This document shows positions 1,422 to 17,763 of a stretch of DNA of 64,000 nucleotides, piece after piece. The notes under the pieces were generated by a model, which searched no databases, had not been told where the DNA came from, and worked only from the letters and a program-made list of their open reading frames with translations. This stretch comes from Streptomyces sp. 8K308. GTDB taxonomy: Bacteria; Actinomycetota; Actinomycetes; Streptomycetales; Streptomycetaceae. Made by a program: the position numbers and the translations under genes. The DNA is taken from positions 1-64,000 of the forward strand of contig NZ_SMKC01000007.1 in the NCBI RefSeq assembly GCF_004348315.1, given 5' to 3'. Position 1 is the first letter of the stretch, and each line of letters starts with the position of its first letter.

Positions 1422-1751
1422 TCAGATCGCCGCGGAGATCCGCGGGTCGTAGACGGTCACCTGGTTCACGGCGCCCTCGGCGTCCGCGTCGGTCTCGCGA
1501 CCGGTGTTCGAGGTCAGGCCCAGGTCCTGGGCGAGACCGTTCAGCGCCTCCGCGAGCGCCTGGCCGGCCCGGCCGAGCCCCTCGTAGGTCTCCATGCCGC
1601 GCGCGGTGCCGGAACCGTTGTAGGCGGCCCCGAAGTTGGCGGCGTGGCCGCCGATGCCCGCCGACACCTCGGCCATGTCGGAGAACGCATCGTTGATGAT
1701 GCCCATGACGCGGTCCACCTCTTCAGGGGACAGCTTGACTTCTTCGAACAT
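1422..1751 (-). CDS. WXG100-like protein, first gene of the run
   Basis: 109 residues starting at ATG 1751. Two amphipathic helices flank a Gly-rich turn (GIGGHAANFGAAYNGSG, about residues 32-48), as in WXG100-type partner proteins. It is the most upstream gene of the four-gene minus-strand cluster, 49 bp before the next start, so the promoter should lie in the 1752-2502 intergenic stretch. Its C-terminal 25 residues look disordered, a place where ESX substrates often carry export signals. Function is inferred from size and context. Confidence 0.7.
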   Translation of the reverse strand: MFEEVKLSPEEVDRVMGIINDAFSDMAEVSAGIGGHAANFGAAYNGSGTARGMETYEGLGRAGQALAEALNGLAQDLGLTSNTGRETDADAEGAVNQVTVYDPRISAAI

Positions 1752-2502
1752 CGTTCCTCACTCTCGCACTCTGCTGGTCGGGCAGCGCGATGCCATAACG
1801 CGTGAGGCACACGCCCCCGCATGCCTCGCCCATGATCCGCCAGCGGCGGTAAGGGCACACCAAAAATCACGTATCAGTTGTGTAGCAAACAGCCGAACGC
1901 CGCACGTCGACGCCACAACTCCGGGCACCCTGCGGCGGCTTGGTCGATGTGTTGGCCGTGACACACCACCTGCGCGCATACGGTAGCGCCTACGGCTCGT
2001 AGGCTACCTCAGAGGAAGCTCAAGCCTCAGCAAAAGCTCAACTACCCTCTGTCAGTGGGTTGCACACGCACACTGCCGCGAACGGCCCTGCGACTCCCCT
2101 CCGTTGCTGGCCGACTCCGCCGCGCAGCCACGCCGTCAGGATTTCCTCCACGCTCTCACCGTTCGGGCGTCGACACGGGCAGAGGTATACCCCCCCGCGG
2201 GTCTGGCGTCCCGCCTTCAGACGGCCCCGGGGTTCGGGCCACCAGGTCGAACTACCCCGTGCCAGTCGCGACCAAGGCCAGGCCAACGATCGACTCGCCC
2301 CCGTCGGCCAACACCGCCGCCAGATCGGCCGCGACATGGCCTGGATCGCGCTCCGTACCGTGGGCGGCTCACCTCATGGTGCACTGCGGCGCTCGGACTG
2401 ATACAGGTATACGTCCATCCGTCGCGCGGCGGATCGTTTCGGCGGTAAGCGGAAGCCTCTGCCATACGGGCCGTCGTGATCTCCTCTTGAAAAGGTGTGT
2501 GG
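1752..2502. other. Intergenic stretch without a convincing gene
   Basis: About 750 bp between the divergent WXG-like run and the nuclease gene. All six frames contain open stretches, but each is rich in Arg/Pro/Ser in the manner of non-coding GC-rich DNA. One minus-strand frame (about 2245-2360) gives a short protein-like stretch (PGHVAADLAAVLADGGESIV) with no start codon and an early stop; it could be gene debris. AT-richer patches near 1860-1890 and 2480-2500 are the likeliest promoter areas for the two flanking transcripts. Confidence 0.4.
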
Positions 2503-3522
2503 GTGCGCGTCCTCATATCCCCGTCATATGGAAGTTCCGGAAGCCGGCGTCATTGGGCTGACACGGTCGAGCGCGAAATCGAGTTCGCCAGGCCTCAATA
2601 TGCCACGCTGCTTACGCCAGACCAGCGGGACCTGCTGTCAATGCTGCACCCAGAGGGCAGCGCCCGCTTCTGGGGCGCCACCGAAAGTCACGACAAGAAG
2701 ATGGCTGATGTGGCCAGGGGGGACATAGTTCTGTTCACTGGGCAGAACATGGTCCGGGCAGTGGGTGAGGTCGGCGCCATCTTCCGCAACAGCGCCTTTG
2801 CCGACGAGCTGTGGCCGCCGCAGCCCGGGGAGACGAGCTGGCGTACCGTGTACAGCCTGCTGGATCTTTCTCCCGTGGAATACCCATATGACCGCCTGAA
2901 CGCCACACTCGGCTATCGGCCTGCTCATAACTTCCCCGGCCAGATGGTAGTGAGGGGTGACAAGGCTCGGGCGGTGCTCGAGGAGTTCATGATCACGTCG
3001 GGCACCGAATTGAGTTCTATCGAGGCATCATCCCCGTCAGACGTCGTAGCCTGGGATGCGGTCAGACTTGCCGCACTAGAGGAAAAACGCACCCATACTG
3101 CCACCTTCGAACGCACGCGCCGTCTCGTAATCGTAGAGCGCCGCGAGTCGGAGCTGGTCAGCGAATTCAAGCAGTATCTCTCCGCTCAGGGACGGAAAGC
3201 AGAACGCTTTTACTGCCCTGCGGGGATTACGGACATATACCTTGACGATCCGGTCGATGCCGAGCTGATAGAGGCCAAGAGCAAGCCCACCCACTACCAC
3301 ATACGTCAAGCTCTCGGGCAGTTGTTGGACTATGCGCCGCACTGCCCACATCCAGTACGAAGGCTCACCGGGCTGTTCCCGAACGTACCGGCGATCAGCG
3401 ACATACAGCTACTGCACCGCTACGGAATCGACGTCATACACCGGAAGGTCCCTGGGGTCTTTCAGCGCCTCTCCGCCCCGGACGAACGGCGGAACCTGAT
3501 GCGACAGGTCTGGTCGAGGTAG
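2503..3522 (+). CDS. Putative modified-DNA restriction nuclease: EVE/PUA-like N-domain plus RecB-like PD-(D/E)XK C-domain
   Basis: 339 residues. I chose GTG 2503 because AAGG lies 7 nt upstream; GTG 2497 is in frame but too close to that site. Residues ~17-155 look like an EVE/PUA-type base-reading domain: RRHWADTV start, FWGAT strand, then ARGDIVLFTG and VRAVGEVG. Residues ~205-320 look like a RecB-type PD-(D/E)XK nuclease: Glu216 helix, Asp244 in GITDIYL, E-A-K at 257-259 in ELIEAKSK, and a QxxxY helix (Q273-Y277 in QALGQLLDY). EVE domains fused to nucleases are known in modification-dependent restriction. Domain calls come from motif reading only. It stands alone, with no methylase next to it. 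Confidence 0.72.
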   Translation: MRVLISPSYGSSGSRRHWADTVEREIEFARPQYATLLTPDQRDLLSMLHPEGSARFWGATESHDKKMADVARGDIVLFTGQNMVRAVGEVGAIFRNSAFADELWPPQPGETSWRTVYSLLDLSPVEYPYDRLNATLGYRPAHNFPGQMVVRGDKARAVLEEFMITSGTELSSIEASSPSDVVAWDAVRLAALEEKRTHTATFERTRRLVIVERRESELVSEFKQYLSAQGRKAERFYCPAGITDIYLDDPVDAELIEAKSKPTHYHIRQALGQLLDYAPHCPHPVRRLTGLFPNVPAISDIQLLHRYGIDVIHRKVPGVFQRLSAPDERRNLMRQVWSR

Positions 3523-3555
3523 GACATACGCTGAGTGCCGCTGACGAGTTCAGAT

Positions 3556-3572
3556 CCGGGACTCCGTCCCGG
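3556..3572 (+). terminator. Hairpin after the nuclease gene
   Basis: A perfect inverted repeat, CCGGGAC-TCC-GTCCCGG (7-bp stem, 3-nt loop), sits 33 bp after the nuclease stop and before the convergent DUF397 gene. There is no clear T tract, so termination is possible but unproven. Confidence 0.4.
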
Positions 3573-3656
3573 TCCCCTCGGTCAGCCGGGGCCACCGCGG
3601 CAGGCGTGACGCGGCGGCCCGCACAGGCGCGCGGGCCGTTCCGTGAACCATGGACG

Positions 3657-3866
3657 TCAACCGCCCAGCGCGCCGCCCTTCACAGCTGAGACGAACGACG
3701 ACCAGCCGCACGCAGCGAACGCGAGCACCGGGCCGTGTGAGTCCTTGCTGTCCCGCACGGGGACGACGGTGGGGATGCCGTCGGCGACTTCAACGCATTG
3801 GCCGCCGTCTTGATTGCTGTAACTACTCTTGCGCCATGTCACGGCGGTCAGGTCGAGGGATCGCAC
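3657..3866 (-). CDS. DUF397 domain protein
   Basis: 69 residues. The sequence WRKSSYSNQDGGQCVEVAD near the N-terminus and the later VPVRDSKDSHGPVLAF are the hallmarks of DUF397 proteins, which are abundant in Streptomyces and nearly always lie directly after an Scr1-type helix-turn-helix regulator. That is the arrangement here: its start overlaps the end of the upstream regulator by 19 bp, so translation is probably coupled. DUF397 proteins are thought to act with the regulator, sometimes in toxin-antitoxin-like pairs; no activity is visible from the sequence itself. Confidence 0.92.
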   Translation of the reverse strand: MRSLDLTAVTWRKSSYSNQDGGQCVEVADGIPTVVPVRDSKDSHGPVLAFAACGWSSFVSAVKGGALGG

Positions 3867-4690
3867 GGTACTTCCTCCGGTATGCGCAGAAGGAACTTCT
3901 GCGACTCGGCCGGTGACAGCGCCAGGTCGCGCGGGGAATCGTACGTGTGAAGCATGCGTGCCACCGAGGCGGCTTCCTCGATGATGTCGCCCCGATAGCC
4001 GTTCTCGACGTAGGCCACCGTACGCCCGTCTGGGAGACGAAGGAACATCAAGTCAGCGTTGGAGAAGCCGTGCAGGCCCGCCTTGAACGGAAGGACGTGT
4101 ACGGCCACATCCGCCCGCTCCCCCATCCCCACCAGGTGCTGAAGCTGCGCCCGCCACTCCCCCGCGTCCCGCAGCGGTGTCCGCAGCACCGTCTCGGACA
4201 GAATGGTTCTGAACGGCGGCGCGTCGTCGCCTTCCAGCAGGTCCCGCCGCCCCATCCGCGCCTCGACTTGCTGATCCAGTTCCTCCCCCTTGAGGCCACC
4301 AGAGGCCAGTAGCTCCCGTGCGTATCCCGGCGTTTGGAGGAGTCCGGGGAGCAGGCTCACCGCGTAGTGCCACAGGCTCGTCGCCTGCTCTTCCAACGCC
4401 ATGTAGTGCCGGTACTGCTCACGAAACTGGGACTTGTCGCTGACGGCCAACTCCCACAGTGCCAGCAACAGCCCCGGCGTCCCGTAGTACACGTCGAGCG
4501 CCTGGACGACCTCCGGGCCGCCCAGCGTCTCGCCCTTCTCCATCTTGCCGAACAGCGACCAGTCCCAGCCCAGCCGTTCGCCGAGCCGGCGCAGACTGTC
4601 GCCGCGCTCGGCCCGCAGGCGGCGCAACTCTCCCGCGAAGCGTACGCGTGGTTCTCGGCTGCGACCCATGATCACTCGTCTCGTCGGCAT
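3848..4690 (-). CDS. Scr1-family helix-turn-helix transcriptional regulator
   Basis: 280 residues from ATG 4690, chosen because AAGG lies 5 nt upstream. ATG 4669 (MGRSREPRV) is an in-frame alternative. Residues ~15-65 form an XRE-type HTH (ELRRLRAERGDSLRRLGERL, then WSLFGKMEKGE). The rest is the Scr1/DUF5753 domain, with the diagnostic LLPGLLQTPGYARELL and a C-terminal VAYVENGYRGDII block. These DNA-binding regulators partner with the DUF397 protein encoded just downstream. The two small genes on the opposite strand are divergent, so autoregulation from the 4691-4870 gap is likely. Confidence 0.92.
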   Translation of the reverse strand: MPTRRVIMGRSREPRVRFAGELRRLRAERGDSLRRLGERLGWDWSLFGKMEKGETLGGPEVVQALDVYYGTPGLLLALWELAVSDKSQFREQYRHYMALEEQATSLWHYAVSLLPGLLQTPGYARELLASGGLKGEELDQQVEARMGRRDLLEGDDAPPFRTILSETVLRTPLRDAGEWRAQLQHLVGMGERADVAVHVLPFKAGLHGFSNADLMFLRLPDGRTVAYVENGYRGDIIEEAASVARMLHTYDSPRDLALSPAESQKFLLRIPEEVPCDPST

Positions 4691-4870
4691 GAGCACCTTG
4701 CGTGGAACGTGTGGAACGTGTCCTGTCCGCCCGGGAAGCCCAGCCCCGCCCTCCGACGTGCCCACCCCACCGCGGACGCATTCTCGTAATGGCTCCGTCG
4801 CGCACGGTACGTGGACCGCACCGCCGGAGCCGGGAAACCGCGTGAGTGCACCCGAAGGAGTGAGCGAATC

Positions 4871-5143
4871 ATGACGGTACGGGATGATCACGACAGTACG
4901 TCAGACCGGTCCGTAACGGCCAAGGTCACGGAGGCGATCGAGGCCCGCGACGTTCTCGCGGACGCGCTCCGCCGGGCCGGGATCCAGCTCTCGGCGATGG
5001 ACATCCGTCGCGCCTGGCCCGGCACCGCCCTCGCCGAGACCGGCGAGAAGGCCACCCGCTACGCCTTCGTCCAGCTCGGCTTCTGCTCCGCCCCGGTCGC
5101 TCTCGCCCTCGCCGCCGTGATCACGAAGGGCACGGAGCGGTGA
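4871..5143 (+). CDS. Hypothetical protein, companion of the Scr1 regulator
   Basis: 90 residues. ATG 4871 follows a strong GAAGGAG site. The protein has a short charged helix (AIEARDVLADALRRAG), a hydrophilic middle, and one hydrophobic C-terminal stretch (APVALALAAVITKG). No known domain was recognised. Small proteins of this kind often sit divergent from Scr1 regulators in Streptomyces. Its stop overlaps the start of the next gene by 4 nt (GTGA), so the two form a translationally coupled pair. Function unknown. Confidence 0.7.
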   Translation: MTVRDDHDSTSDRSVTAKVTEAIEARDVLADALRRAGIQLSAMDIRRAWPGTALAETGEKATRYAFVQLGFCSAPVALALAAVITKGTER

Positions 5144-5382
5144 CCGACCAGAGCGACGCGCCACCCCAGGAACCGATCATCGGCGCGACCGTCCACCACA
5201 CGCCGCTCGACCGGGTCGGCGTCGTCATGGGACACGTCGGTCCCTGCTATCAGCTCCGACCGCTGGGAGGCGGACGCGAGTGGGATGCCTCCCCCGACAC
5301 CATCTGGCCGATAAGCCCGAAGGAAGTGCTGCACGCCCGCCTCGCGGTGGTGAACGCCCGCAGCCGGAAGCCGCTCCGTTGA
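5140..5382 (+). CDS. Hypothetical protein
   Basis: 80 residues starting with GTG 5140, inside the stop of the previous gene. The fold looks like a small all-beta domain (IIGATVHHTP, RVGVVMGHVGPCYQLRPLGG). The sequence is soluble, with no signal peptide. Proteins of this type are common in Streptomyces next to Scr1/DUF397 loci; I know of no assigned role. The 77-bp gap before the AAA ATPase leaves open whether it belongs to the same transcript. Confidence 0.65.
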   Translation: MTDQSDAPPQEPIIGATVHHTPLDRVGVVMGHVGPCYQLRPLGGGREWDASPDTIWPISPKEVLHARLAVVNARSRKPLR

Positions 5383-5459
5383 GTAACGCTGACGCGGTGC
5401 GTTTCCGCCAAGAACCCCCAGCGACGGCGCCGGCGCCGGCGCCCAGTAGTCTCTTGCCC

Positions 5460-6680
5460 ATGTCGGCACGCCTGCTCCGCCTCGACGTGGAGAACTTTCG
5501 GAGTTTGCGAGACGTCAGCATTCCGCTTGGCGACCTCACTGTGCTCGTCGGCCCGAACGGCGTCGGTAAGACGAACGTCCTGGAGGTCTTCCGCTTTCTC
5601 GCGGATATCATCCGCACCGACCTCCAGCCAGCGCTCGAGTCACGTGGAGGGTTCGACGAGGTTGCCTTCTGGGGGGGCGAGAAGCCTCCCAGCTCCCTGA
5701 AGATCGGACTGACGGCAACCTGGACCACCAACGCAACGGTCAGCGCCCCCGACAACTACGAGCTCACGATCCGACGGCGAGCACTCGACGGCGAGCGCCG
5801 GCACCAGGGCCGGTACATCGTCTTCCGCCAGGAGAAGTTCGTGTTCAAACGCACCCGTGGGCGAGGGCGGCGGATCACCGTCTCCGGTCAGCAGGCGACG
5901 GTCACAGACACGCAGGGTGAGAAGAAGACGCGACAGAGCAACATCGGCATCAACAAGCTGAGCAGTGGCCTCTCCACGCTGCCCCGGCTCGCAAGGACCG
6001 AAGGGGGCGCGGAGGTCACCAGCGTCGCGCGGCGCCTGTCGTCCCTGCGCGTCTTCGACGTGGACGTCAACGCCGCCCGGCGGCCCTCACGTTACTTCCC
6101 TACAAACAACGCTCTCGCACCCGACGCGCGTAATCTGGCTGACTTCCTCTTCGAGCTCAGGCAAGACGACGACGTATGGAGCCGCCTCCTGGCGGACGCC
6201 CGCTCCGTGCTTCCGCAACTGGAAGACGTCGAGTTCACGATGGCCGTCGGCTCTACTGACGAGATCACGGTCATGCTCCGTGAGCGCGGGCTGCGCCGCC
6301 CCACGCCACTAGCGGATGCCTCCTACGGCACGGTACGTCTGCTCGGTCTGCTCGCGTTGCTCTACGACCCGAACCCAGCCGCGCTGACGTGCGTGGAGGA
6401 GATCGACCACGGGCTCCATCCACAGGCCCTGGAACTGCTGGTCGAGCGGTTGCGGGAGGCCAGCGCCCGAAGCCAGTTCCTGGTGGCCACCCACTCGCCG
6501 GCTCTTGCGGATCGGCTCCGCCCTGATGAACTGGTCATCTGCGAACGTGACGAGTCGGGCGCGTCCCACATTCCCGCCCTCACGCGGGAACAGATCGAGG
6601 AGATCGTGGAGGAGAGCGAGGACCTGCCGCTGGGTGAGCTGTGGTTCTCCGGCGTGCTCGGGGGCGGCATTGAGCGGTAA
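5460..6680 (+). CDS. AAA family ATPase (SMC/OLD-like ABC-type fold), probable defence component
   Basis: 406 residues from ATG 5460. The N-terminus reads RLDVENFRSLRDVSIPLGDL followed by Walker A GPNGVGKT at ~31-38, the classic start of RecF/OLD-type ABC ATPases. Near the C-terminus are a Walker B-like TCVEEIDHGLHP (~310-321) and the ATHSP switch (~344-348). These ATPases sense or clamp nucleic acids and usually act with a nuclease. The next gene overlaps it and carries TOPRIM-like acidic motifs, so the pair resembles a split OLD or PARIS-type abortive infection system. The ATPase call is firm; the defence role is inferred. Confidence 0.9.
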   Translation: MSARLLRLDVENFRSLRDVSIPLGDLTVLVGPNGVGKTNVLEVFRFLADIIRTDLQPALESRGGFDEVAFWGGEKPPSSLKIGLTATWTTNATVSAPDNYELTIRRRALDGERRHQGRYIVFRQEKFVFKRTRGRGRRITVSGQQATVTDTQGEKKTRQSNIGINKLSSGLSTLPRLARTEGGAEVTSVARRLSSLRVFDVDVNAARRPSRYFPTNNALAPDARNLADFLFELRQDDDVWSRLLADARSVLPQLEDVEFTMAVGSTDEITVMLRERGLRRPTPLADASYGTVRLLGLLALLYDPNPAALTCVEEIDHGLHPQALELLVERLREASARSQFLVATHSPALADRLRPDELVICERDESGASHIPALTREQIEEIVEESEDLPLGELWFSGVLGGGIER

Positions 6681-7326
6681 GGCCAAGGTCGCGAAAGCGC
6701 CTGCGGGGAAGTCTGTTATCGTCATCGCCGGGGAGGACAGCAACGACTGCCGAGCTCTGGAAATCCTCATCCGGGAGCTACAGCCCAGCCTCAAGAGCAA
6801 ACTCGTCCGCATCAGCGATCCTGTCAGGCTGAAGACGGCTACCGAAGGCAATCTCAGTCAGCGCATACGCACGATCGTCAACAAGGCGAAGGCGCGGGCC
6901 GCCCGTGACCGTGCCCGACTGTCGGGAATCATCCTCCATGAGGATCTGGACGCTCCCACGGGTCCGCACTACTCGGCCGTCCGCAGCCGTCTGGCCGACG
7001 CACTGGCCAAACACAGCCCCTGCGGCACAGCACTCGCCCTCGCCGCTGAGGAGACAGAGGCGTGGCTGCTCCTTTTCCCTGACGCATTTCCGCATGTGCA
7101 CCCCGGCTGGAGCGTCCCGGCACAGTTACGCGGCAAGGACACCGGAACCATCAAAGGGCCGAAGGAACTACTTAAAAAGAAACTCGGCACTCCCATTTAC
7201 CGTGAGAGCGAGGGTCCAGACATCATGTTGGCGGCCCAGCAGTCCGGGCTGCTCGTGAGCCCGGTCGGGACGAACCAGTCGTACCTGGACTTCGTAGCAG
7301 ATCTCAATGATCTCAGGGTTGGCTGA
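6670..7326 (+). CDS. TOPRIM-like (DUF4276/OLD nuclease-type) partner of the AAA ATPase
   Basis: 218 residues from TTG 6670 (GGGGGCGG upstream, 11-nt overlap with the ATPase gene); GTG 6634 is an in-frame alternative. The order of acidic motifs fits a TOPRIM fold: Glu22 in VIVIAGEDSND, an E/D-rich HEDLDA at ~90-95, then AAEETEAWLL at ~126-134. TOPRIM domains bind metal and cut nucleic acid in OLD nucleases and in PARIS AriB. The middle and C-terminal parts (RGKDTGTIKGPKELLKK) match nothing I can name. The overlap implies equimolar expression with the ATPase. Assignment rests on motif spacing only. Confidence 0.72.
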   Translation: MSGKAKVAKAPAGKSVIVIAGEDSNDCRALEILIRELQPSLKSKLVRISDPVRLKTATEGNLSQRIRTIVNKAKARAARDRARLSGIILHEDLDAPTGPHYSAVRSRLADALAKHSPCGTALALAAEETEAWLLLFPDAFPHVHPGWSVPAQLRGKDTGTIKGPKELLKKKLGTPIYRESEGPDIMLAAQQSGLLVSPVGTNQSYLDFVADLNDLRVG

Positions 7327-7422: not shown

Positions 7423-8409
7423 TCAGCCACGCCCACGCCGGTTGCCGCCGTGGTCGGTGATCAGTTCAAGTAACTGGTCGGCCGCACTCTGCCCCTTCAT
7501 CAGGTCGCTGGGCAGGGTGAACGCCTTCGGATAACTGCCGCGGCCGGGTGCGGCGTTGTAGGTGGTCCCGTCGATCTCCAGGCCGACCGCGGTGCTCAGG
7601 GCGGCACGGATGGGCCAGGCCGTGATCTGCGGCAGGGGCGCGCTCGCGATGGGCCGCCGATCGTTGTCCAGCAGGGACAGCACGCCCTGGTCGATCGTGA
7701 CGTAGCCGTGCTGTGCCACCGGGTGGAGTCCTCTGCCGATCTGCACCTCGTCGAAGACGAAGCCGGGTTCGGGAGCCGCCAGCACCGGCCTCGGGCTGTC
7801 TTCGGAGCCCCGTGGTGTGAGCCGCAGCGACGCGGCCACGGCGTCGGCCAGCTCAACCATCCGGTGGGCGGAGTCGCGAACCCAGACCATGCTCAGCAGG
7901 AGCATGTCTTCGGCGTATTCCTTGGGGATCACGTAGTGAGTCACTGCCTCCATCGCCACCTGGTCGCCGAATCCCGTGTCGGACATCACCACCTTGTGCA
8001 ACCTACAAGCCGGGCCCGCGGGCAGTTCGACTGCTGTGATGAGGCTCTCCCGGGCATAGGACACGCCAGGAAAGTTCTTGGGCTCCCGCAGTCTGGCCAA
8101 GGTCGCTTCAACCGTGCGCTGGTAGTCAGGGGTGTACCGCTTGACGTGCACACTCGCGGGCGATGCGGGTGGGGAACTGCGCCGCACGTGCGGCACGTAC
8201 ACGACCACGGGCTCGATCCGTGCCTCCCGAGCCTGGACCCAGTCATCGCTCAGCTGCCGGTACGTCTCCTTCGCGTACCGCTTGTTCCGCCGGCCGCCGC
8301 GCTCCGCCACCTGCCGTGCGACGTGCTCGGCAGGGTCGGTGCGGTTCACATCCAGCCAGAGCCACTCCCCGCCGCCGGGATAGTCGAACCCAGGCACCCA
8401 CTCGGTCAT
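7423..8409 (-). CDS. ESX-associated hypothetical protein (paralogue set, long form)
   Basis: 328 residues from ATG 8409, overlapping the upstream gene by 4 nt. The first ~215 residues are homologous to the proteins encoded at 8406-9071 and 10890-11531. Shared landmarks are WLWLDVNRTDPAEHVARQVAE, PVVVYVPHV, AVELPAGPACRLHKV, and VELADAVAASLRL before a linker. The last ~110 residues are extra and carry a beta-rich stretch (EVQIGRGLHPVAQHGYVTID). No signal peptide or membrane span is seen. It lies last in the minus-strand operon with the WXG-like proteins, so a role in ESX export or toxin handling is inferred. Confidence 0.75.
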   Translation of the reverse strand: MTEWVPGFDYPGGGEWLWLDVNRTDPAEHVARQVAERGGRRNKRYAKETYRQLSDDWVQAREARIEPVVVYVPHVRRSSPPASPASVHVKRYTPDYQRTVEATLARLREPKNFPGVSYARESLITAVELPAGPACRLHKVVMSDTGFGDQVAMEAVTHYVIPKEYAEDMLLLSMVWVRDSAHRMVELADAVAASLRLTPRGSEDSPRPVLAAPEPGFVFDEVQIGRGLHPVAQHGYVTIDQGVLSLLDNDRRPIASAPLPQITAWPIRAALSTAVGLEIDGTTYNAAPGRGSYPKAFTLPSDLMKGQSAADQLLELITDHGGNRRGRG

Positions 8410-9071
8410 CTCGGCTCCCTCGCTCCTTCAGCCAACAGGTCCTGTTCCCCCTGCGCCCGGGCTCCGCCGCCCTCCTGTTCTGGAGAGATCCGGAGCGTGG
8501 CGGCCATGGCATCCGCTATGTCGACCATCTCTGGGCCGACGGCCGGGCTGGCCCAGTTCACCGAGAGCTTGAACAGGACCTCGGGGAACACGGGCGGCAG
8601 GAAGAAGTAGTCGACGTGCTCGATCACGAACCGCCGGCCGTCGTCACCCTTGTCTTCCAGCATCAGCTCGTGAAGTCGGCAGGCCGGGCCGGCGGGCAGC
8701 TCCAGGACGGTGATCTCCGGCCGGCCGTGCCGGTAGGGCTGCGGCCGACGCACCTGGTCGAGGACCGCCTCCACGGTGCGCTCCGCCGGGGCGCAGAGCG
8801 CCCCCTCGACATATGCGCTGGCCGGTACGAGGGGCGGCGCTCCCTGGGGCACCAGCGGGACGTAGAGCACCACGGGGGCGGCCTCCCGTTTCCGCATGTT
8901 CTCCCAGATCACCTTGAGTTCCGGGTAGACAGCCTCCGCGTACTGCCGTGCACGATCGCCGGGCCGCTGAGCGATCTCCCGCGCCGCGAGTTCCGCGCCA
9001 TCGGGATCATTGACGGAGAGCTGTAGCCATCCGACGTCGGGGAAGTCGAACGAGCGGATCCATCTGGTCAC
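8406..9071 (-). CDS. ESX-associated hypothetical protein (paralogue set, short form)
   Basis: 221 residues, overlapping genes at both ends by 4 nt. It shares its whole length with the N-terminal part of the 7423-8409 product: RSFDFPDVGWLQLSVNDPDG, APVVLYVPLVPQG, VLELPAGPACRLHELML, DIADAMAATLRI. The C-terminal ~20 residues are charged and probably disordered. The family is unknown to me. Two adjacent copies and a third close by suggest duplication within an ESX-linked locus. Confidence 0.75.
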   Translation of the reverse strand: MTRWIRSFDFPDVGWLQLSVNDPDGAELAAREIAQRPGDRARQYAEAVYPELKVIWENMRKREAAPVVLYVPLVPQGAPPLVPASAYVEGALCAPAERTVEAVLDQVRRPQPYRHGRPEITVLELPAGPACRLHELMLEDKGDDGRRFVIEHVDYFFLPPVFPEVLFKLSVNWASPAVGPEMVDIADAMAATLRISPEQEGGGARAQGEQDLLAEGAREPR

Positions 9072-10513
9072 CGTGGGGCCCCCTCACTCCCCTGATGGGT
9101 GAACTCGCCAACTTCTGCGGCCTCCTGTGGCCAGGGACTGTCCATGGTCAGCGAGAGGCCAGGGAGGTTGGTGAACGGGATGGCCTGTGGCACGTTCAGG
9201 GCTGGCGACCACGTGTCGTCCAGCGTGACCAGGGTCGATCCGGTGCCGGAGAGCACGCCGCCCTGCTCCACGAGAGCTGCCTGACCTGCGGCCACTCCGG
9301 CGGCGCCGGCGGCGGCAGACGTGGCAGCCCCCATCTCGGTCAACCCGAAGGCTTGCTGAACGTTCCTGGCCATCGACCAGTTACTCGGATCGAAGGGCGC
9401 GCGCAGGCTGGCCATCAGGTCCGGGCCGAGGTTCTGGAAGGTGTGCCGGGCCCATCCCAGAGGGCCGGGGGAAATCGAGCGCCCGAGGATGGTCACCGGC
9501 CGACCCGCCACCTCGGCGGCATCTCGGGCCGCGCGCAAGCCCCGCAGTGCCTCTCCCGGCCCAGCGCCACCCGTCAGACGACGAATCTCCGCCAGCCGAT
9601 CGGCCTGGGGAAGGCCCTCGTCGACACTCCGGACCACGTTCCGAACCGCACCATAGACGCCCCGCCCCCGGGCCGCGCGGGCCGCCGCGCCGGCGGCTCG
9701 GCCGAGGCCGAAGGTCAGCAGGCCGATGGAGTCGATCAGGATGCCCCGCAGGTCGCCCTGGAGCAGGTTCACCACGAGGGAGACGGCGGTGGCGATCGTG
9801 GCGACGGCGGCCAGGGCCTGGCCAAGGACCGGCACCCAGCACAGGAGCAGCGCGGCAATACCGGCGACCATGGCGATCTGGCCGGCCAGTTCCCCGACGA
9901 AGTTCAGGGCCTGGGAGAAGGCCGCTCCCGCGCGGTCCCAGAACCCGTCGGTCAGGCCGTCGCCGCCGATGAACTCCCCGATGGCGTCGGCCGCGCGCTG
10001 CGCCGCGATGTCGCGGTCCTCGATCAGCTCGGCCATCCGGCTCCGGAGCCGGGTCAACTCCGCCTGGGCGCCGGCCAGCTCGCCGGAGAGAGACGCGAAC
10101 TGGTCGTGGGTGTCGGAGTCCTCGTCCTCCGCCGCCGCCACCCTCGGGCCCAGCCGCTCGATCTCCCCCTGCGTCTGCCGGGCCTGCCGGCGCAGGTCCA
10201 GGCTCTCGTCCTGGACTTCGCGCAGTTGCGGCCAGTACTCGGCCAGCGCGTCGGCCGCGGCCTCGTAACGACCGTGGGCGCGGAACACGTCGTCCGACAC
10301 CTCGGTGGCGGTCTCCCGGAAGGCGTCGCCCGCGTCCGACTGCCAGCCGTCCCGGCTGTCGGTCACCTCCCGCAGCAGGTCGCGGGCGCGTTGGATGAAC
10401 TCGGCGGTCTGGCGGTACCGGTCGGCGGCCTCCCGCACCAGCTCCCAGTCGCCGGGCAGCGGGTCCTGGCCGTCCTCGGTCAGCGGAGACCAGTCACGGG
10501 GACGCTCGGGCAC
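9068..10513 (-). CDS. WXG/LXG-like polymorphic protein without a recognisable toxin tip
   Basis: 481 residues. It opens with RPRDWSPLTEDGQDPLPGDW, very like the start of the RHS toxin at 17683 (RPSDWSP). Residues ~25-190 are helical and coiled-coil-like, with the WQSDAGDAFRETATEV motif typical of WXG-type toxins and a YWPQLREVQ motif also shared with the RHS protein. Two hydrophobic segments follow (IAMVAGIAALLLCWVPVLG, AVATIATAVSLVVNLLQG, ~210-255). The last ~220 residues are Ala/Gly-rich with no nuclease or other toxin motif that I can see. It sits 3 bp from a small WXG-like gene that may be its export partner. Confidence 0.78.
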   Translation of the reverse strand: MPERPRDWSPLTEDGQDPLPGDWELVREAADRYRQTAEFIQRARDLLREVTDSRDGWQSDAGDAFRETATEVSDDVFRAHGRYEAAADALAEYWPQLREVQDESLDLRRQARQTQGEIERLGPRVAAAEDEDSDTHDQFASLSGELAGAQAELTRLRSRMAELIEDRDIAAQRAADAIGEFIGGDGLTDGFWDRAGAAFSQALNFVGELAGQIAMVAGIAALLLCWVPVLGQALAAVATIATAVSLVVNLLQGDLRGILIDSIGLLTFGLGRAAGAAARAARGRGVYGAVRNVVRSVDEGLPQADRLAEIRRLTGGAGPGEALRGLRAARDAAEVAGRPVTILGRSISPGPLGWARHTFQNLGPDLMASLRAPFDPSNWSMARNVQQAFGLTEMGAATSAAAGAAGVAAGQAALVEQGGVLSGTGSTLVTLDDTWSPALNVPQAIPFTNLPGLSLTMDSPWPQEAAEVGEFTHQGSEGAPR

Positions 10514-10516
10514 CGG

Positions 10517-10804
10517 TCAGCCCTCCCCGTCCAGCGCGTTGACCAGCTCCGTCTCGATTCCCTCGTATCCCTCGGCGGCGGCCCGCGCGTGCTGGGCCAG
10601 CTTCTGTAGGCCCTCCATCAACTTGCTGCGGTGAATCCGCCAGTTCTCCGCGAACTGCTCCAGCTCGTGGGCCAGATCGTCATGGCCGACCTGCTCGGCG
10701 TAGTCCGAGGCGAGGTCCTCGGCACTCTCGAACTCGGCCGCGACGAAGCGCAGCCGCTCGCCGAGCTCCCGGACGTCGTCCACCGAGACGACGAGATCCG
10801 ACAC
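10517..10804 (-). CDS. Small WXG100-like partner protein
   Basis: 95 residues, ATG start at 10804. It is an all-helical acidic protein (ELGERLRFVAAEFESAEDLA, ELEQFAENWRIHRSKLMEGL) of WXG100 size, with a Trp at ~residue 55 between two helices. It ends 3 bp before the start of the 481-residue WXG-type protein; such tight linkage is typical of ESX partner-substrate pairs. No catalytic motif. Confidence 0.75.
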   Translation of the reverse strand: MSDLVVSVDDVRELGERLRFVAAEFESAEDLASDYAEQVGHDDLAHELEQFAENWRIHRSKLMEGLQKLAQHARAAAEGYEGIETELVNALDGEG

Positions 10805-10889
10805 GTTTCTCCCCCTCCACGTCAGCTGTCACTACGACAAACGAGGCGTAACCCGACAAGCAACGGCCGCCCAGAAGAGCCCCGAAGGG

Positions 10890-11531
10890 CTACGACCACC
10901 GCAGGGTGGCGGCGATCGCGTCGAACAACTCCACCTGGGCGTCGGCGAGCTCGGGCATCGGCGTACTGAACGTCAACACCATCCAGGCGGCGAAGTCCGG
11001 CACCGGCAGGTAGAGGTCGAGGACCGTGTTGGGGCGGTCCGCCGGCTGACCGAGGTCCCTGGTGTCCTCGGTCGTCTCCTGGCGGCGGCAGCGCACGGCC
11101 GGTCCGGACGGCAGGGTGAGCGTGGTCACCTGGGCACCGTCGCCGTACTTGTCGCGGAGGCCGTCCGCCACCATGTCCCCGGGCAGCCGCACCGGCTGCC
11201 CGGGGTCCTCCGGCTCCACCGTCACCAGCAGACTGCACGGGACGGGAAAGCCCAGCACGGCCTGGGTGGACAGATAGAGCTCGATGCCGTTGCGGTCGGC
11301 GGCGGAGTCCACCATGGCGGACAGCATTCCCTGTAGCTCCCGCCGCCGCCCGGCGTGCTCGTCGCGGCTTGGATAGGTGCGGTCCACCAGAGCACGGACG
11401 GACCGGGCGCGGTCGTCGTTCGAGCGCAGCGGAATCCGGTACCAGTCCGTCGGCGTGATCAGGTGATACCGCGACGGTAACCGGGGGTTGGCCCCCGGCT
11501 CCCTCGCGGTCCGTTGCTGTGCCTGGCGCAT
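10890..11531 (-). CDS. ESX-associated hypothetical protein (third paralogue)
   Basis: 213 residues from ATG 11531. It is a more diverged member of the family encoded at 7423-9071: YHLITPTDWYRIPL start, CSLLVTVEPE strand, TLTLPSGPAVRCRR in place of ELPAGPACRLH, and DAQVELFDAIAATLRWS at the C-terminus. It is the first gene of this minus-strand operon, 85 bp upstream of the small WXG-like gene. Function unknown; context is ESX secretion. Confidence 0.72.
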   Translation of the reverse strand: MRQAQQRTAREPGANPRLPSRYHLITPTDWYRIPLRSNDDRARSVRALVDRTYPSRDEHAGRRRELQGMLSAMVDSAADRNGIELYLSTQAVLGFPVPCSLLVTVEPEDPGQPVRLPGDMVADGLRDKYGDGAQVTTLTLPSGPAVRCRRQETTEDTRDLGQPADRPNTVLDLYLPVPDFAAWMVLTFSTPMPELADAQVELFDAIAATLRWS

Positions 11532-11880: not shown

Positions 11881-12497
11881 ATGGCCCTGGCCCAGCAGCC
11901 GCAGCCGCCCCTGCTCCGCGATGTCATCGACATCAAGGAGTCGATATCCACCTCCGACTTCGTGCTCCGACTCTCCGAGGCGACGACCCCGGCCGGGGCG
12001 AAGCACGCGTTGCGGGACTACGTGGTCCCAGAGCGGCTGCTGGAGAACTTCGACCAGGCGCTGGGCCTCATCAAGGCCGCCGTCGACGGGCACACGTCCA
12101 AGGCGGCGTACTGCACGGTTCGTTCGGTTCCGGCAAGTCGCACTTCATGGCGGTGTTACACGCCCTGCTCAGCGGCAGCCCGGCCGCCCGGGCTCGGGCA
12201 GACCTGGACCCGGTGCTGACGAAGCACGAGTGGCTCGGCACGGACGGGAAGAAGTTCCTGCTGGTGCCCTGCCACATGCTCGGAGCCAAGGCCCGCGGGC
12301 TACCGGCAGGTCGCGGACGTCCCGGGGGGATCGCCGAGCGAATCGTGGAGTTCGTCCGAACCGACTCCGTGCCCCTGGCGACCCTGGAGGAGTCCGCGAG
12401 CGACGAGTTGCTCGACGCGTGGATCGAGTCGATCGCCCGGGCCCACGGCATCGGGGAGCGCTTGCTGCTCAGCACGGGCCTGCGGTTCTTCCCCTGA
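11881..12497 (+). pseudogene. pglY: Relic of pglY (type 2 BREX P-loop ATPase), frameshifted and truncated
   Basis: From ATG 11881 (GGAAGGAGA upstream) the frame gives LLRDVIDIKESISTSDFVLR, then DYVVPERLLENFDQALGLIK and DGHTSKAAY, which I recognise as the N-terminus of PglY, the large ATPase of the phage growth limitation/BREX type 2 system. A one-base loss at ~12109 changes frame. The next frame continues at once with the Walker A segment LHGSFGSGKSHFMAVLHALL and on to KKFLLVPCHMLGAK (~12290). After that the match to PglY is lost, and a stop follows at 12495. Intact PglY exceeds 1100 residues, so only ~10% remains. No other BREX gene is in the window. Confidence 0.82.
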
Positions 12498-12563: not shown

Positions 12564-13091
12564 TCAGGCGTAGGGATTGATCGCGAACTCCGGTCGCTCG
12601 CTCGGGAAGTCCTCGGGGAAGCAGCGGACGCGCAACGACCCCGTCAGCAGGCCCAGGATGACCCTGGTCGAGCTCTCCGCCACCAGGGCGAAGTCCAGCT
12701 GGCCGGCCTCGACGATCAGGGTCGGCCAGGCGTCGGGGGCGCCGACCGGGACCCAGAGGAGCACGTCGCCGTTGTCCGTGCCGCCCCACTGGACGAGGTC
12801 GTCGGTGTCGAGACCGTGCGCGGCGAGCGCCGCCCGGATCCGGGGGATCGGCTTCCCGCGCAGGATGGTCCGCGTAACCTCGGTGGCGGCGGCGATATCG
12901 AGGTGCGGGTTCTCGGCACCGACGCCGTAGATCCACAGGAACTCGTCGAAGCACCCGACGCCGTAGGCGTCGACGAGGGCCCGGTGGCTGTCCGGGACGG
13001 TCCGCTCCACCGCCGCCCCCGCCCGCCGGGGGCGGACAGGGGCGGCCGGTGGCGGGCAGAGCGCGGTGAGTTCGCGCAGGTCGTTGCTCAT
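12564..13091 (-). CDS. SMI1/KNR4 (SUKH) family immunity protein
   Basis: 175 residues from ATG 13091, overlapping the RHS toxin stop by 4 nt. The motif DAYGVGCFDEFLWIYG (~41-56) and the later GDVLLWVPVG and FALVAESSTRVIL fit the SUKH superfamily, best known as immunity proteins for nuclease toxins. Position directly after a toxin whose tip looks like a DNA/RNA endonuclease strongly supports the cognate immunity role. It should bind and block the toxin tip in the cytoplasm. The Arg/Pro-rich N-terminal 30 residues are probably disordered. Confidence 0.88.
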   Translation of the reverse strand: MSNDLRELTALCPPPAAPVRPRRAGAAVERTVPDSHRALVDAYGVGCFDEFLWIYGVGAENPHLDIAAATEVTRTILRGKPIPRIRAALAAHGLDTDDLVQWGGTDNGDVLLWVPVGAPDAWPTLIVEAGQLDFALVAESSTRVILGLLTGSLRVRCFPEDFPSERPEFAINPYA

Positions 13092-16000
13092 ATGTTGGGG
13101 ATTCTCTCGCGGAACGACCAGCCGAAGTCGTCGACGGCCTCGATGAGGACATGACTCGGGATGTCCGCGGTGGCGCTCGCGTACTCCGGGGTCACACTGA
13201 GGATGACCGTGTTGCCGGTGTTCTCCACGTGGGCGGCGATCATGTCCTCCACGTCCGAGATGCGCCCGTTGTTCTGCGCCTGCCCCTGGGTGACCAGGTT
13301 GCGCATGTCCCGGCCGTCGCCGCCGAACTGTCGGCCGATCAGGTGGCCGCGGCTGTGGCCGGCCGCGTCGCCGCCGAAGCCCGGCGGTGCGAAGCGGCGA
13401 CCGCGCCCCGCGGCGGATCCGATGAGGCCGGCGGCCGCGTCGCGCAGCACCTGCGGCGTCACCTCCGCGTAGGCCGCGCCCCGCTGCCCGTTGGGGCCGA
13501 TCTCGCTGTAGTACGGCGAGAGGCCGAGTGGGTCCATGCCGGTGTGCGGGTTGTGGACGTAGGTGGCGGGGTTGGGAGCGGGGGCGAGGCCGAGCGGGTC
13601 CGGGGAGAGGTAGCGGGCGGTCTCGGGGTCGTAGTGGCGGAAGTAGTTGTAGTGCAGGCCGGTTTCGGGGTCGAAGTACTGGCCGGGGAAGCGCAGCGGG
13701 GTGTAGGCGACGGCGTCCGCGTTCCAGGTCACCCGCCCCCACAGGGTGGTGCGGGTCCGCCAGGCGATACCCCCGGACTCGTCCACCAGTTCGGTCGGCG
13801 TTCCGACGAGGTCGGTGACGATGGCGAAGAAGCGTGAGTCGACCTCGTCCTGCGGCGCGTCGGGAGCGATGACGCGTTCCGTTTGGGCGATGGGGCGGAT
13901 CCCGTCGTGCTCCCAGGTCAGCGTCACGGCGTGCGGGTGGGACGGGGTCCACGCTGTCTGTTCGCAGAGTGCGGTGCCGTCCCAGGTGAAGTCGACGCGC
14001 TCGACGACGGTGTGGCCGTCGGGGGCCAGCCGCTGCTTGGTGGTGCGGCGGCCCAGGGGGTCGTAGAGGTAGCGCCAGTGGCTGCCGTCCGGGGTGACCA
14101 CCGCGGTCAGCCGGTCCTCGTCGTCCCAGGTGTAGTGCCAGGCCGCGGGCTTGTGGGAGGGCCTGGCCTGGCGGCGGGTGGTGATCCGGCCCAACTGGTC
14201 GTGTTCGTATCGGGTGTTGCCCGCTCGGGTGACGCGCGTGCCCGTGTAGTCGCGGGTGCCGGTCGCCTCCGCGTGGCCCGGGTGACCGGCCGGCCAGGAG
14301 GCGTCGGTCTGGTTTCCGGCCGCGTCGTAGGCGTAGCGCTCGGTCCAGTTGCGGCCGTCCACGGCCGTGACGCGGTTCGCCTGGTCAAGCACGTAGCGAC
14401 GGCTGCCGGCGCGCTGATCGTCGATGCCGACGAGGCTGCCGTCCGTGGCGTACTCGTAGGACCGGTGCTGCACCCGGCGACCGTCGCCGGCGGTCACCGA
14501 CTGAGCCGTGAGACGGCCGAGTTCGTCCAGGTCCTGGGTGAGCGTGACGCCCGCGCCGAAGCGACGCGCGACCTCCCGCCCCGACCAGTCGTGGGCGAAG
14601 TGGACGGTGCGTCCCGCCGTGTCCATCCGGGTGCGGTTGCCGGCCGCGTCGTAGGCCCACTCCGTGGTGACGCCGCCGGGGGTGACGCGGCGCACGGGAC
14701 GGCCCAGCTCGTCGTGGGTGTAGTGGAGCGTCCGACCGTTGACGGTCTCGCTCAGCAGGAGCCCGTTGGCGTCCCGCCGCAGGGAGAGCGTGCTGCCCGG
14801 AGCCTTCGCCTCGGTGAGGCGGCCGTTGGCGTCGTATCCGAACGTGGTGACGTGGCCGGCGCTGTCCTTGCGCGTCATGCGCCCCATGGCGTCGTAGGCG
14901 AAGCGGACGGTACGGCCGAGGGCGTTGGTGCGGGCGGTCAGACGGCCGGCGGCGTCGTGCTCGTAGCCGACGCGCCGGTCGTCGAAGTCGGTCTCCGCGA
15001 CCAGTCGGCCCGCCGCGTCGTAGGCGTAGGTCCAGGTCAGCCCCTGAGGGTTGGTGACCCGGGTGAGGCGCAGGCTGGCGTCGTGCTCGAACTCGTAGCG
15101 CGCGCCGTCCGGCCCGATGCGGGCGGCCGGCAGGTCGAAGTGGGTGTACTCGAACCGGGACACGCTGCCGGTCGGCGTCGTGTGGCTCGTGCAGTTGCCC
15201 TCGCCGTCGTAGGTCCAGCTCTCCACGGCGCCGTCCGCCGTGACTCGGCGCAGCAGTTGGCCTTCGGTCGTCCAGGTGAGGCGGGTCGTGTGTCCCTGGG
15301 GGTCGGTGAAGGCGACGATGCGGCCGAAGGCGTCGTGTTCCCACGCGCTGACCGCGCCCAGCGGATCGGTCGCCGTCACGGGCAGACCAGCGGCGTCGCA
15401 CCGCACCTCGCGCCGGCCCCCGAGGGCGTCGGTCACCTCCGTGAGCCGCCCCGCACCGTCGTACGCGTACGACGTGGTGGCGCCGGTCGGCTCCGTGACG
15501 GCCACGCAGTTCCCGCGCTCGTCGTACGCGCGCCGGGTGGTGGATCCGTCGGGGAGCGTGACGGCGGACAGGCGCCCCATGTCGTCGTAGTCGAAGCGGG
15601 TCTCCGTGCCGTCCGCGTACGTGATGCCGGCGGGCAGGCCCGAGGGGCCGGTGGCGAAGCGGGTCGTGTGGCCCAGGGGATCGGTCTCGGCGACCACGTG
15701 GTGATCGGCGTCGTACTCGGTGCGGGTGGTGTTGCCTAGGGGGTCGATCTCGGCGATGACGTCGTGGCGGGCGTCGATGACGTAGCGGCTGGTGGCGCCC
15801 TGGGCGGTGGTCAGGGTGGTGACGCGGGCGTCCGGCCAGTCGGGGTGGGTGCCGTCGTAGGCGAGGGAGACGGTGACGTGGCCGGCCTCGCCGCCCTCCG
15901 CGACGCAGCGGTCGCGGTCGTCGTAGCTGTAGGCGTAGCTGCGGTCGTTCCGGTCGGTCCAGGACGTCACCCGCAGCCGCTCGTCGTAGGTGAAGCGCAG

Positions 16001-17683: not shown

Positions 17684-17763
17684 CCCCAACACCCCCGCAG
17701 GCGATCAGAACTTGCGATCGACCACGCTAAACAGTGGTGCGCGGCCCTTCCATGGCAGGTCTG

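Follow-up and report, generated by a model that had tools for sequence, protein, structure and literature searches.

The locus

The window, i.e., the whole stretch of DNA analysed, comprises 64,000 nucleotides of Streptomyces sp. 8K308 (contig NZ_SMKC01000007.1, positions 1 to 64,000). Our subject is a pair of overlapping genes within it, here called A and B, which lie beside a regulator pair:

3657–4780, minus strand: XRE + DUF397 pair (by Pfam, HTH_31 and DUF5753 at 3848–4780 and DUF397 at 3657–3866)
5447–5452, plus strand: possible −10 box (TAGTCT), 7 nt before the start codon of A, which may indicate a leaderless transcript
5460–6680, plus strand: gene A, ATG start, 406 aa; OLD-type ABC ATPase (AAA_21; PADLOC HEC-01A), predicted sensor
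6670–6680, plus strand: 11-nt overlap of the A and B reading frames
6670–7326, plus strand: gene B, TTG start, 218 aa; DUF4276-type, TOPRIM-like predicted nuclease (PADLOC HEC-01B), predicted effector

The initial annotation had described an OLD-type ATPase gene overlapping a TOPRIM-like gene, with an Scr1-type regulator pair beside them, and the 11-nt overlap, the AAA_21 match and the Pfam matches of the regulators bear this out. Both proteins align over nearly their whole length with counterparts in five named Streptomyces relatives (67–68% identity for A, 55–58% for B), so both can be taken as real genes. Upstream of A, a TA-N3-T hexamer, often GATAGGTT, begins 10–13 nt ahead of the start codon in 21/23 relatives (18/23 by a narrower scripted count), making it a possible leaderless promoter of the A–B system.

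The XRE–DUF397 pair is of an ordinary Streptomyces type, described as regulators (PMC10364602, PMC6262351) and elsewhere treated as a toxin–antitoxin pair (PMC7159879). In the 21 genomes counted, DUF397 matches range from 16 to 52 a genome, so the presence of such a pair alone says little. DUF397 lies within 3 kb of A–B in all five related loci (L002–L006). Of 20 other genomes, five (L056, L059, L063, L066 and L068) have a match equally near to A–B or to what is left of it, where the counted densities give a chance expectation of about 0.5/20. The 3-kb cut was picked post hoc, and we treat this enrichment as a lead only.

Gene A is an OLD-type ATPase

In Pfam, A exceeds the cut-offs for AAA_21 (E = 5.7e-38, 132.1 bits), AAA_15 (3e-20, 73.6 bits) and SMC_N (2.9e-14, 53.5 vs 40 bits), and its RecF match is under the cut-off (34 vs 172 bits). 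Walker A (GPNGVGKTN), Walker B (LTCVEEIDH) and switch-histidine (ATHSP) stretches can be recognised by eye. A long coiled coil would be hard to fit into the 406-aa product. A predicted model had a mean pLDDT of 48 and was set aside.

A matches 136 PADLOC families at E ≤ 1, and by far the strongest is HEC-01A (PDLC04183, E = 3.5e-199, residues 1–403 of 406); the much weaker ones include AriA (2.7e-35), PDC-M07A (1.5e-34), mad3 (1.7e-30) and AbiLi (5.1e-28). The adjacent gene B matches HEC-01B models and no others in PADLOC (six families), the best being PDLC04207 (E = 1.5e-82, residues 15–214 of 217). Both members of HEC-01, an A-type ATPase and an adjacent B partner, are thus present at near full length, and we found no difference that would exclude membership.

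By these profile matches, the pair is HEC-01, an already catalogued and little-studied candidate anti-virus system, and not a new system. The initial annotation's suggestion that it might be undescribed therefore falls, since dedicated PADLOC profiles exist for both proteins. HEC-01 reportedly originates from the Payne et al. 2024 preprint. "HEC-01" together with "PADLOC" was not found in the literature searched, and a wider search returned, judging by titles, chance "HEC-01" strings, papers citing the Payne et al. preprint and users of "guilt-by-embedding". HEC, as used in PADLOC-DB, abbreviates "Hma-embedded candidate". A 2026 paper says that a 2024 preprint credits several HECs, including HEC-06, with antiviral activity (PMC12988326).

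Gene B has an invariant set of metal-binding-type residues

B residues are numbered as in our protein P0002, i.e., over the 217 residues that follow the TTG-encoded Met, so E21 here is the Glu22 of the initial annotation. We aligned the window protein with 21 relatives (n = 22, broken copies excluded), and nine residues were invariant in 22/22 sequences: E21, D25, H89, D91, D93, E127, E129, W131 and K164. The key positions, all on the plus strand, are:

6733–6735: codon of E21, the TOPRIM-type glutamate after beta-1; 22/22
6937–6951: HEDLD motif (H89, D91, D93), with DxD-type acids of TOPRIM where beta-3 ends; 22/22
7051–7065: E127-x-E129-x-W131 motif (ETEAW), proposed second-metal ligand, common to DUF4276
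7162–7164: codon of K164, in the PKE stretch of the RGKDTGTIKGPKELLKK region; 22/22; proposed counterpart of Bp OLD K562

The TOPRIM-like acids that the initial annotation saw in the second protein are present in all of the aligned sequences, and their loss among homologues, which it had named as evidence against its reading, was seen in none of the 22 sequences.

No Pfam match of B reached its cut-off; the values were E = 0.0036 for baeRF_family2 and E = 0.23 for DUF4276 (12.1 vs a cut-off of 30.2 bits). We rejected baeRF_family2 as an identity for B, this weak match appearing in 1/22 sequences, the window's own. DUF4435 matched neither B nor any other of the 22 aligned sequences at E ≤ 1, and the RloB profile had no match to B at that limit. 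Sequence searches of the PDB with B found no credible relative (best E = 0.52 in one search and no match in another).

B belongs to the DUF4276 superfamily

The DUF4276 Pfam profile (PF14103) matches 4/22 of the aligned B-family sequences at E ≤ 1, with a best value of 0.0031. We gathered DUF4276-type matches from 60 genomes of the class (3) and 396 of the phylum (9) and used 11/12, dropping a contig-edge fragment (L073); 8 of the 11 exceed the Pfam cut-off and three (L090, L091 and L092) are below it. Profile–profile comparison of the B family (22 sequences) with these 11 gave a probability of 97.3, an E-value of 2e-11 and a score of 76.9 over 190 columns. Among column-shuffled controls (n = 50), 49 scored 19.9 or less, and one reached 132.2, exceeding the real score through a 12-column end artefact.

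A mixed alignment of 17 rows (7 B-family and 10 of the 11 DUF4276-type proteins) shows which positions are shared. D91 is kept in 17/17 rows, as are E129 and W131, while positions 89 and 93 vary. At the E21 position, 15/17 rows carry Glu and two carry Asp (L088 and L089, 2/10 of the DUF4276-type rows), and the K164 position carries lysine in 7/10 DUF4276-type rows and none in 3/10.

The neighbourhoods agree as well. In all 11/11 DUF4276-type loci, the gene has an A-related AAA ATPase ORF next to it, and the two such pairs that were scanned (L072 and L074) both match HEC-01A/B and have the same gene order as A–B. HEC-01B models such as PDLC04196, PDLC04200, PDLC04202 and PDLC04205 match B and its relatives and also the DUF4276 protein of L072. 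Two PADLOC labels appear to be swapped: PDLC04144, named HEC-01B, matches ATPases, and PDLC04143, named HEC-01A, matches a DUF4276 protein.

On this profile evidence, B is a divergent, full-length DUF4276-type protein at the superfamily level. Of the families that the initial annotation had proposed for a profile check, DUF4276 thus held up and DUF4435 and RloB did not. It had also set apart the C-terminal RGKDTGTIKGPKELLKK region as an extra segment that could not be placed; because the profile alignment is full-length, this region belongs to the shared DUF4276-type domain, and it contains the invariant K164. The word DUF4276 was absent from the literature searched, and a sequence comparison of DUF4276 with the PDB found no credible relative (best E = 0.043, to designed proteins).

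Is B a TOPRIM protein?

TOPRIM domains are described as having an invariant Glu, a DxD motif and a four-stranded sheet, and the Bp OLD residues are given as E400/E404, D455/D457, T506/E508 and K562 (PMC6755086). B has residues in the same order (E21/D25, D91/D93, E127/E129 and K164), which is an analogy of order with Bp OLD and not a superposition. The role of second-metal ligand, for example, would pass to E127/E129 from T506/E508.

In a predicted model of B, strands at residues 14–20, 44–48, 82–91 and 120–125 with helices between them give a beta-alpha-beta-alpha-beta-alpha-beta topology, with E21 just past strand 1 and D91/D93 at the end of strand 3. A glutamate after beta-1 and a DxD after beta-3 are therefore found in 22/22 sequences, given the predicted strand ends. 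The model is weak, with a mean pLDDT of 54 and values below 50 from residue 123 onward. A Foldseek search with it had nothing at E ≤ 0.001, its leading rows being thiamin pyrophosphokinase, MmtN and RadA. VIA-align brought up riboflavin/lumazine synthases and designed cages, with a top Z of 7.3. The fold-search rows listed for this model were generic alpha/beta matches, with no TOPRIM fold among them. At the profile level, the B family did not match a TOPRIM profile built from six OLD sequences (probability 0.4), and DUF4276 matched it weakly (probability 22, E = 0.001, 66 columns). From the motifs and predicted topology, we infer a TOPRIM fold for B, and its conserved residues make a metal-dependent nuclease the probable function.

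Distribution and co-occurrence

Among 295 genomes of the genus, B was found in 24 (E ≤ 0.001) and A in 17 (E ≤ 1e-60). All 17/17 genomes with A also have B, and all 16/16 genomes with uninterrupted B (one near-full-length match of at least 200 residues) also have A. A failure of the two genes to co-occur had been named at the outset as grounds for abandoning the pairing; in these genomes they go together. In the remaining 8/24 genomes, the B match is split, interrupted or short (G052, G158, G271, G030, G221, G177, G182 and G231), that of G231 being marginal at 29% identity. The A match of G077 covers 147 residues only and that of G246 contains a stop, and both genes appear intact in 14/24 genomes. 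The 8/24 degraded or marginal copies of B suggest that the pair is rapidly lost, although draft assembly errors could explain some of them. Beyond the window's own, B was found in 1/395 genomes of a phylum sample (396 genomes), also in the same genus. Plasmid and phage records gave no B match at the limits used, and among viral contigs, 40 stretches fitted a pattern and none was a relative of B.

These data bear on two explanations that have no need of a defence role. The first is that A–B is a housekeeping DNA-repair pair, with A as a RecF/SMC-like ATPase and B as its accessory nuclease. A does exceed the SMC_N cut-off, but its RecF match falls short, B is patchy both within the genus and across the phylum sample, it decays frequently, and the pair has no single common context (see below). 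We therefore consider a repair pair very unlikely.

The second is that A–B is a type IV-like toxin–antitoxin pair. AAA_21 is annotated as "putative AbiEii toxin", A matches AbiLi (though also a great many other ATPase profiles), and B is often broken, being uninterrupted and near full length in 16/24 genomes. However, no antitoxin family was among the matches of B in Pfam, NCBIfam, PADLOC or PHROGs, its conserved metal-binding-type acids suggest an enzyme, and restriction-type genes are close by in 13/25 loci. In PARIS, ariA and ariB are each reported to be deletable alone without toxicity (PMC9122126). A toxin–antitoxin pair is a doubtful account of A–B, to which we give little credence.

Genomic context

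We compared 25 homologous loci (5 named loci and 20 regions, broken copies included); some are cut by contig ends, so the counts are lower bounds. In at least 13/25, tblastn shows relatives of one or both of two genes, which encode a 1686-aa MTase (found in 10 loci) and a 2321-aa helicase (in 7). The 13 are L002–L006, L053, L057, L063–L065, L068, L069 and L071. The MTase matches the PADLOC type IIG REase-MTase profile (E = 2.9e-301) and DrmMI (1.8e-50), and the helicase matches DruE (2.3e-86). In these 13/25 loci, the nearer of the two genes is within 4.6 kb of the pair. The MTase match stops about 100 bp before A in L002–L006, and the helicase begins about 100 bp past B in L064; elsewhere one of the two can lie up to 8.4 kb off. 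As L002–L006 are closely related, we also counted without them, which leaves 8/20 loci with an MTase and/or helicase. The remaining 12/25 loci have neither gene, nor does the window.

A–B and the IIG/DrmMI-like MTase and/or DruE-like helicase may form a composite defence cassette. We also considered, and rejected, a chromosomal hotspot as the reason for the conserved flanks: the flanking genes proved to be the DruE-like helicase and IIG/DrmMI-like MTase. A search with the helicase start gave some match in 112/121 genomes, mostly short, and was set aside.

In the window itself, a scan of flanking genes turned up no intact defence system, and no helicase family (Pfam, E ≤ 1) in the five genes upstream (2497–5382) or two downstream (7423–9071). 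A truncated, frame-broken 5′ fragment of a BrxC/PglY gene lies at about 11908–12290 (plus strand), ending before an Rhs-like gene; it matches PADLOC PDLC02488 in two frames (E = 2e-26 and 2.5e-22, profile positions 3–127 of 1240), and Pfam gave nothing over cut-off there. This match makes it an apparent leftover of a BREX/Pgl-type system. The argument from a defence neighbourhood is therefore moderate for the A–B family, since 12/25 loci lack both reference genes, and weak for the window copy, which has this fragment alone.

Two other parts of the window deserve mention. Upstream, a 341-aa protein (2497–3522, plus strand) matches phrog_14240 of unknown function (E = 2.9e-10, residues 7–170) and nothing in Pfam (at E ≤ 0.1), in NCBIfam or in PADLOC; by eye, its C-terminal part has a D..ExK pattern resembling a PD-(D/E)XK nuclease. 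Downstream, the minus-strand region 7423–11531 holds three similar-looking genes (7423–8409, 8406–9071 and 10890–11531) and an EspC-like gene (10517–10804) that is barely over the Pfam cut-off. A sub-threshold WXG100 match lies at 1422–1751 (minus strand), and the 1534-aa protein at 13088–17692 (minus strand) is RHS/YD-repeat-like by eye. Taken together, these genes resemble a type VII-secreted polymorphic-toxin region.

Proposed mechanism

We consider it likely that A–B is a HEC-01 candidate defence system in which A is an OLD-type sensor and B is a DUF4276-type, TOPRIM-like nuclease under its control. The ATPase would probably sense a phage product or DNA state and hold B inactive until infection, whereupon it would release or activate B. 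As a two-metal nuclease, B would then cut nucleic acid, be it tRNA, DNA or another target, and stop phage growth, and the likely outcome would be abortive infection, like that of AriA/AriB in PARIS, whose ATPase sensor is described as keeping its TOPRIM nuclease in check pending a phage trigger (PMC12409363, PMC9122126). The families, the linkage and the conserved residues are observed; from these and from such systems we infer the sensing, that A controls B, that B is a nuclease, and the target, outcome and antiphage function, which makes A–B probably a split, PARIS-like sensor–nuclease pair acting through abortive infection. A 2026 survey describes OLD-type ATPases paired with TOPRIM or other nucleases near BREX-type systems as backup effectors (PMC12839542), and that description agrees with the sensor–nuclease reading of A–B.

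A more specific idea is that HEC-01 pairs of the DUF4276 branch are "guards of restriction", with the ATPase sensing phage inhibitors of the nearby MTase/helicase defence genes and unleashing the TOPRIM nuclease in response. We think this unlikely. If true, it would be an independent parallel to PARIS with a different effector family, and a solo copy such as that of the window would guard unlinked restriction systems.

For the sensor–nuclease reading, what is new here is the placement of HEC-01B in the DUF4276 superfamily with an OLD-like, TOPRIM-type residue pattern. Connecting HEC-01B with DUF4276 and with a TOPRIM-type active site offers a testable step which gives an opaque candidate system a mechanistic frame, and the OLD-nuclease-like pattern names the B residues worth mutating.

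Comparison with known systems

PARIS is close in architecture, and the initial annotation was right that the two functions are split here as they are there: both have two genes, an OLD-type ATPase and a TOPRIM-type effector, the latter predicted in the case of B. The published detection rule for PARIS asks for AAA_15/AAA_21 at 32/27 bits and a DUF4435 partner of at least 27 bits (PMC9122126). A is well above the ATPase thresholds, but the DUF4435 partner is missing, so by this rule the pair is not PARIS; DUF4435 also had 0 matches in 60 genomes of the class. That A–B might be a divergent AriA/AriB is suggested by this shared architecture and by the AriA match of A. However, A matches HEC-01A far better, the AriA model length of 304 is that of a generic AAA_21 domain, and B is DUF4276-like whereas DUF4435 is given as the family defining AriB (PMC9122126). 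A divergent PARIS is accordingly a highly improbable identity for the pair.

Single-chain OLD proteins differ in fusing ATPase and TOPRIM domains, whereas A and B are separate ORFs. A–B resembles OLD and Gabija GajA (Class 1/2 OLD) in its type of ATPase and in a catalytic-type residue order that parallels Bp OLD. It differs from OLD in that the B family has no profile-level match to the OLD TOPRIM, and from Gabija in that no UvrD-like helicase gene is among the neighbours scanned.

DUF4276-type proteins share with B the full-length profile match, an E129-A-W131-type motif in all rows, the lysine of a PKE/AKE stretch in most and, again in most, an S-x3-F-type tail. B differs in scoring under the Pfam cut-off and in having the HEDLD motif and a longer central segment. 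How many OLD classes and systems exist is, according to a review, still undecided (PMC10568477), and the A–B branch is one more split OLD-type member, with HEC-01 as the known system whose profiles both window proteins match.
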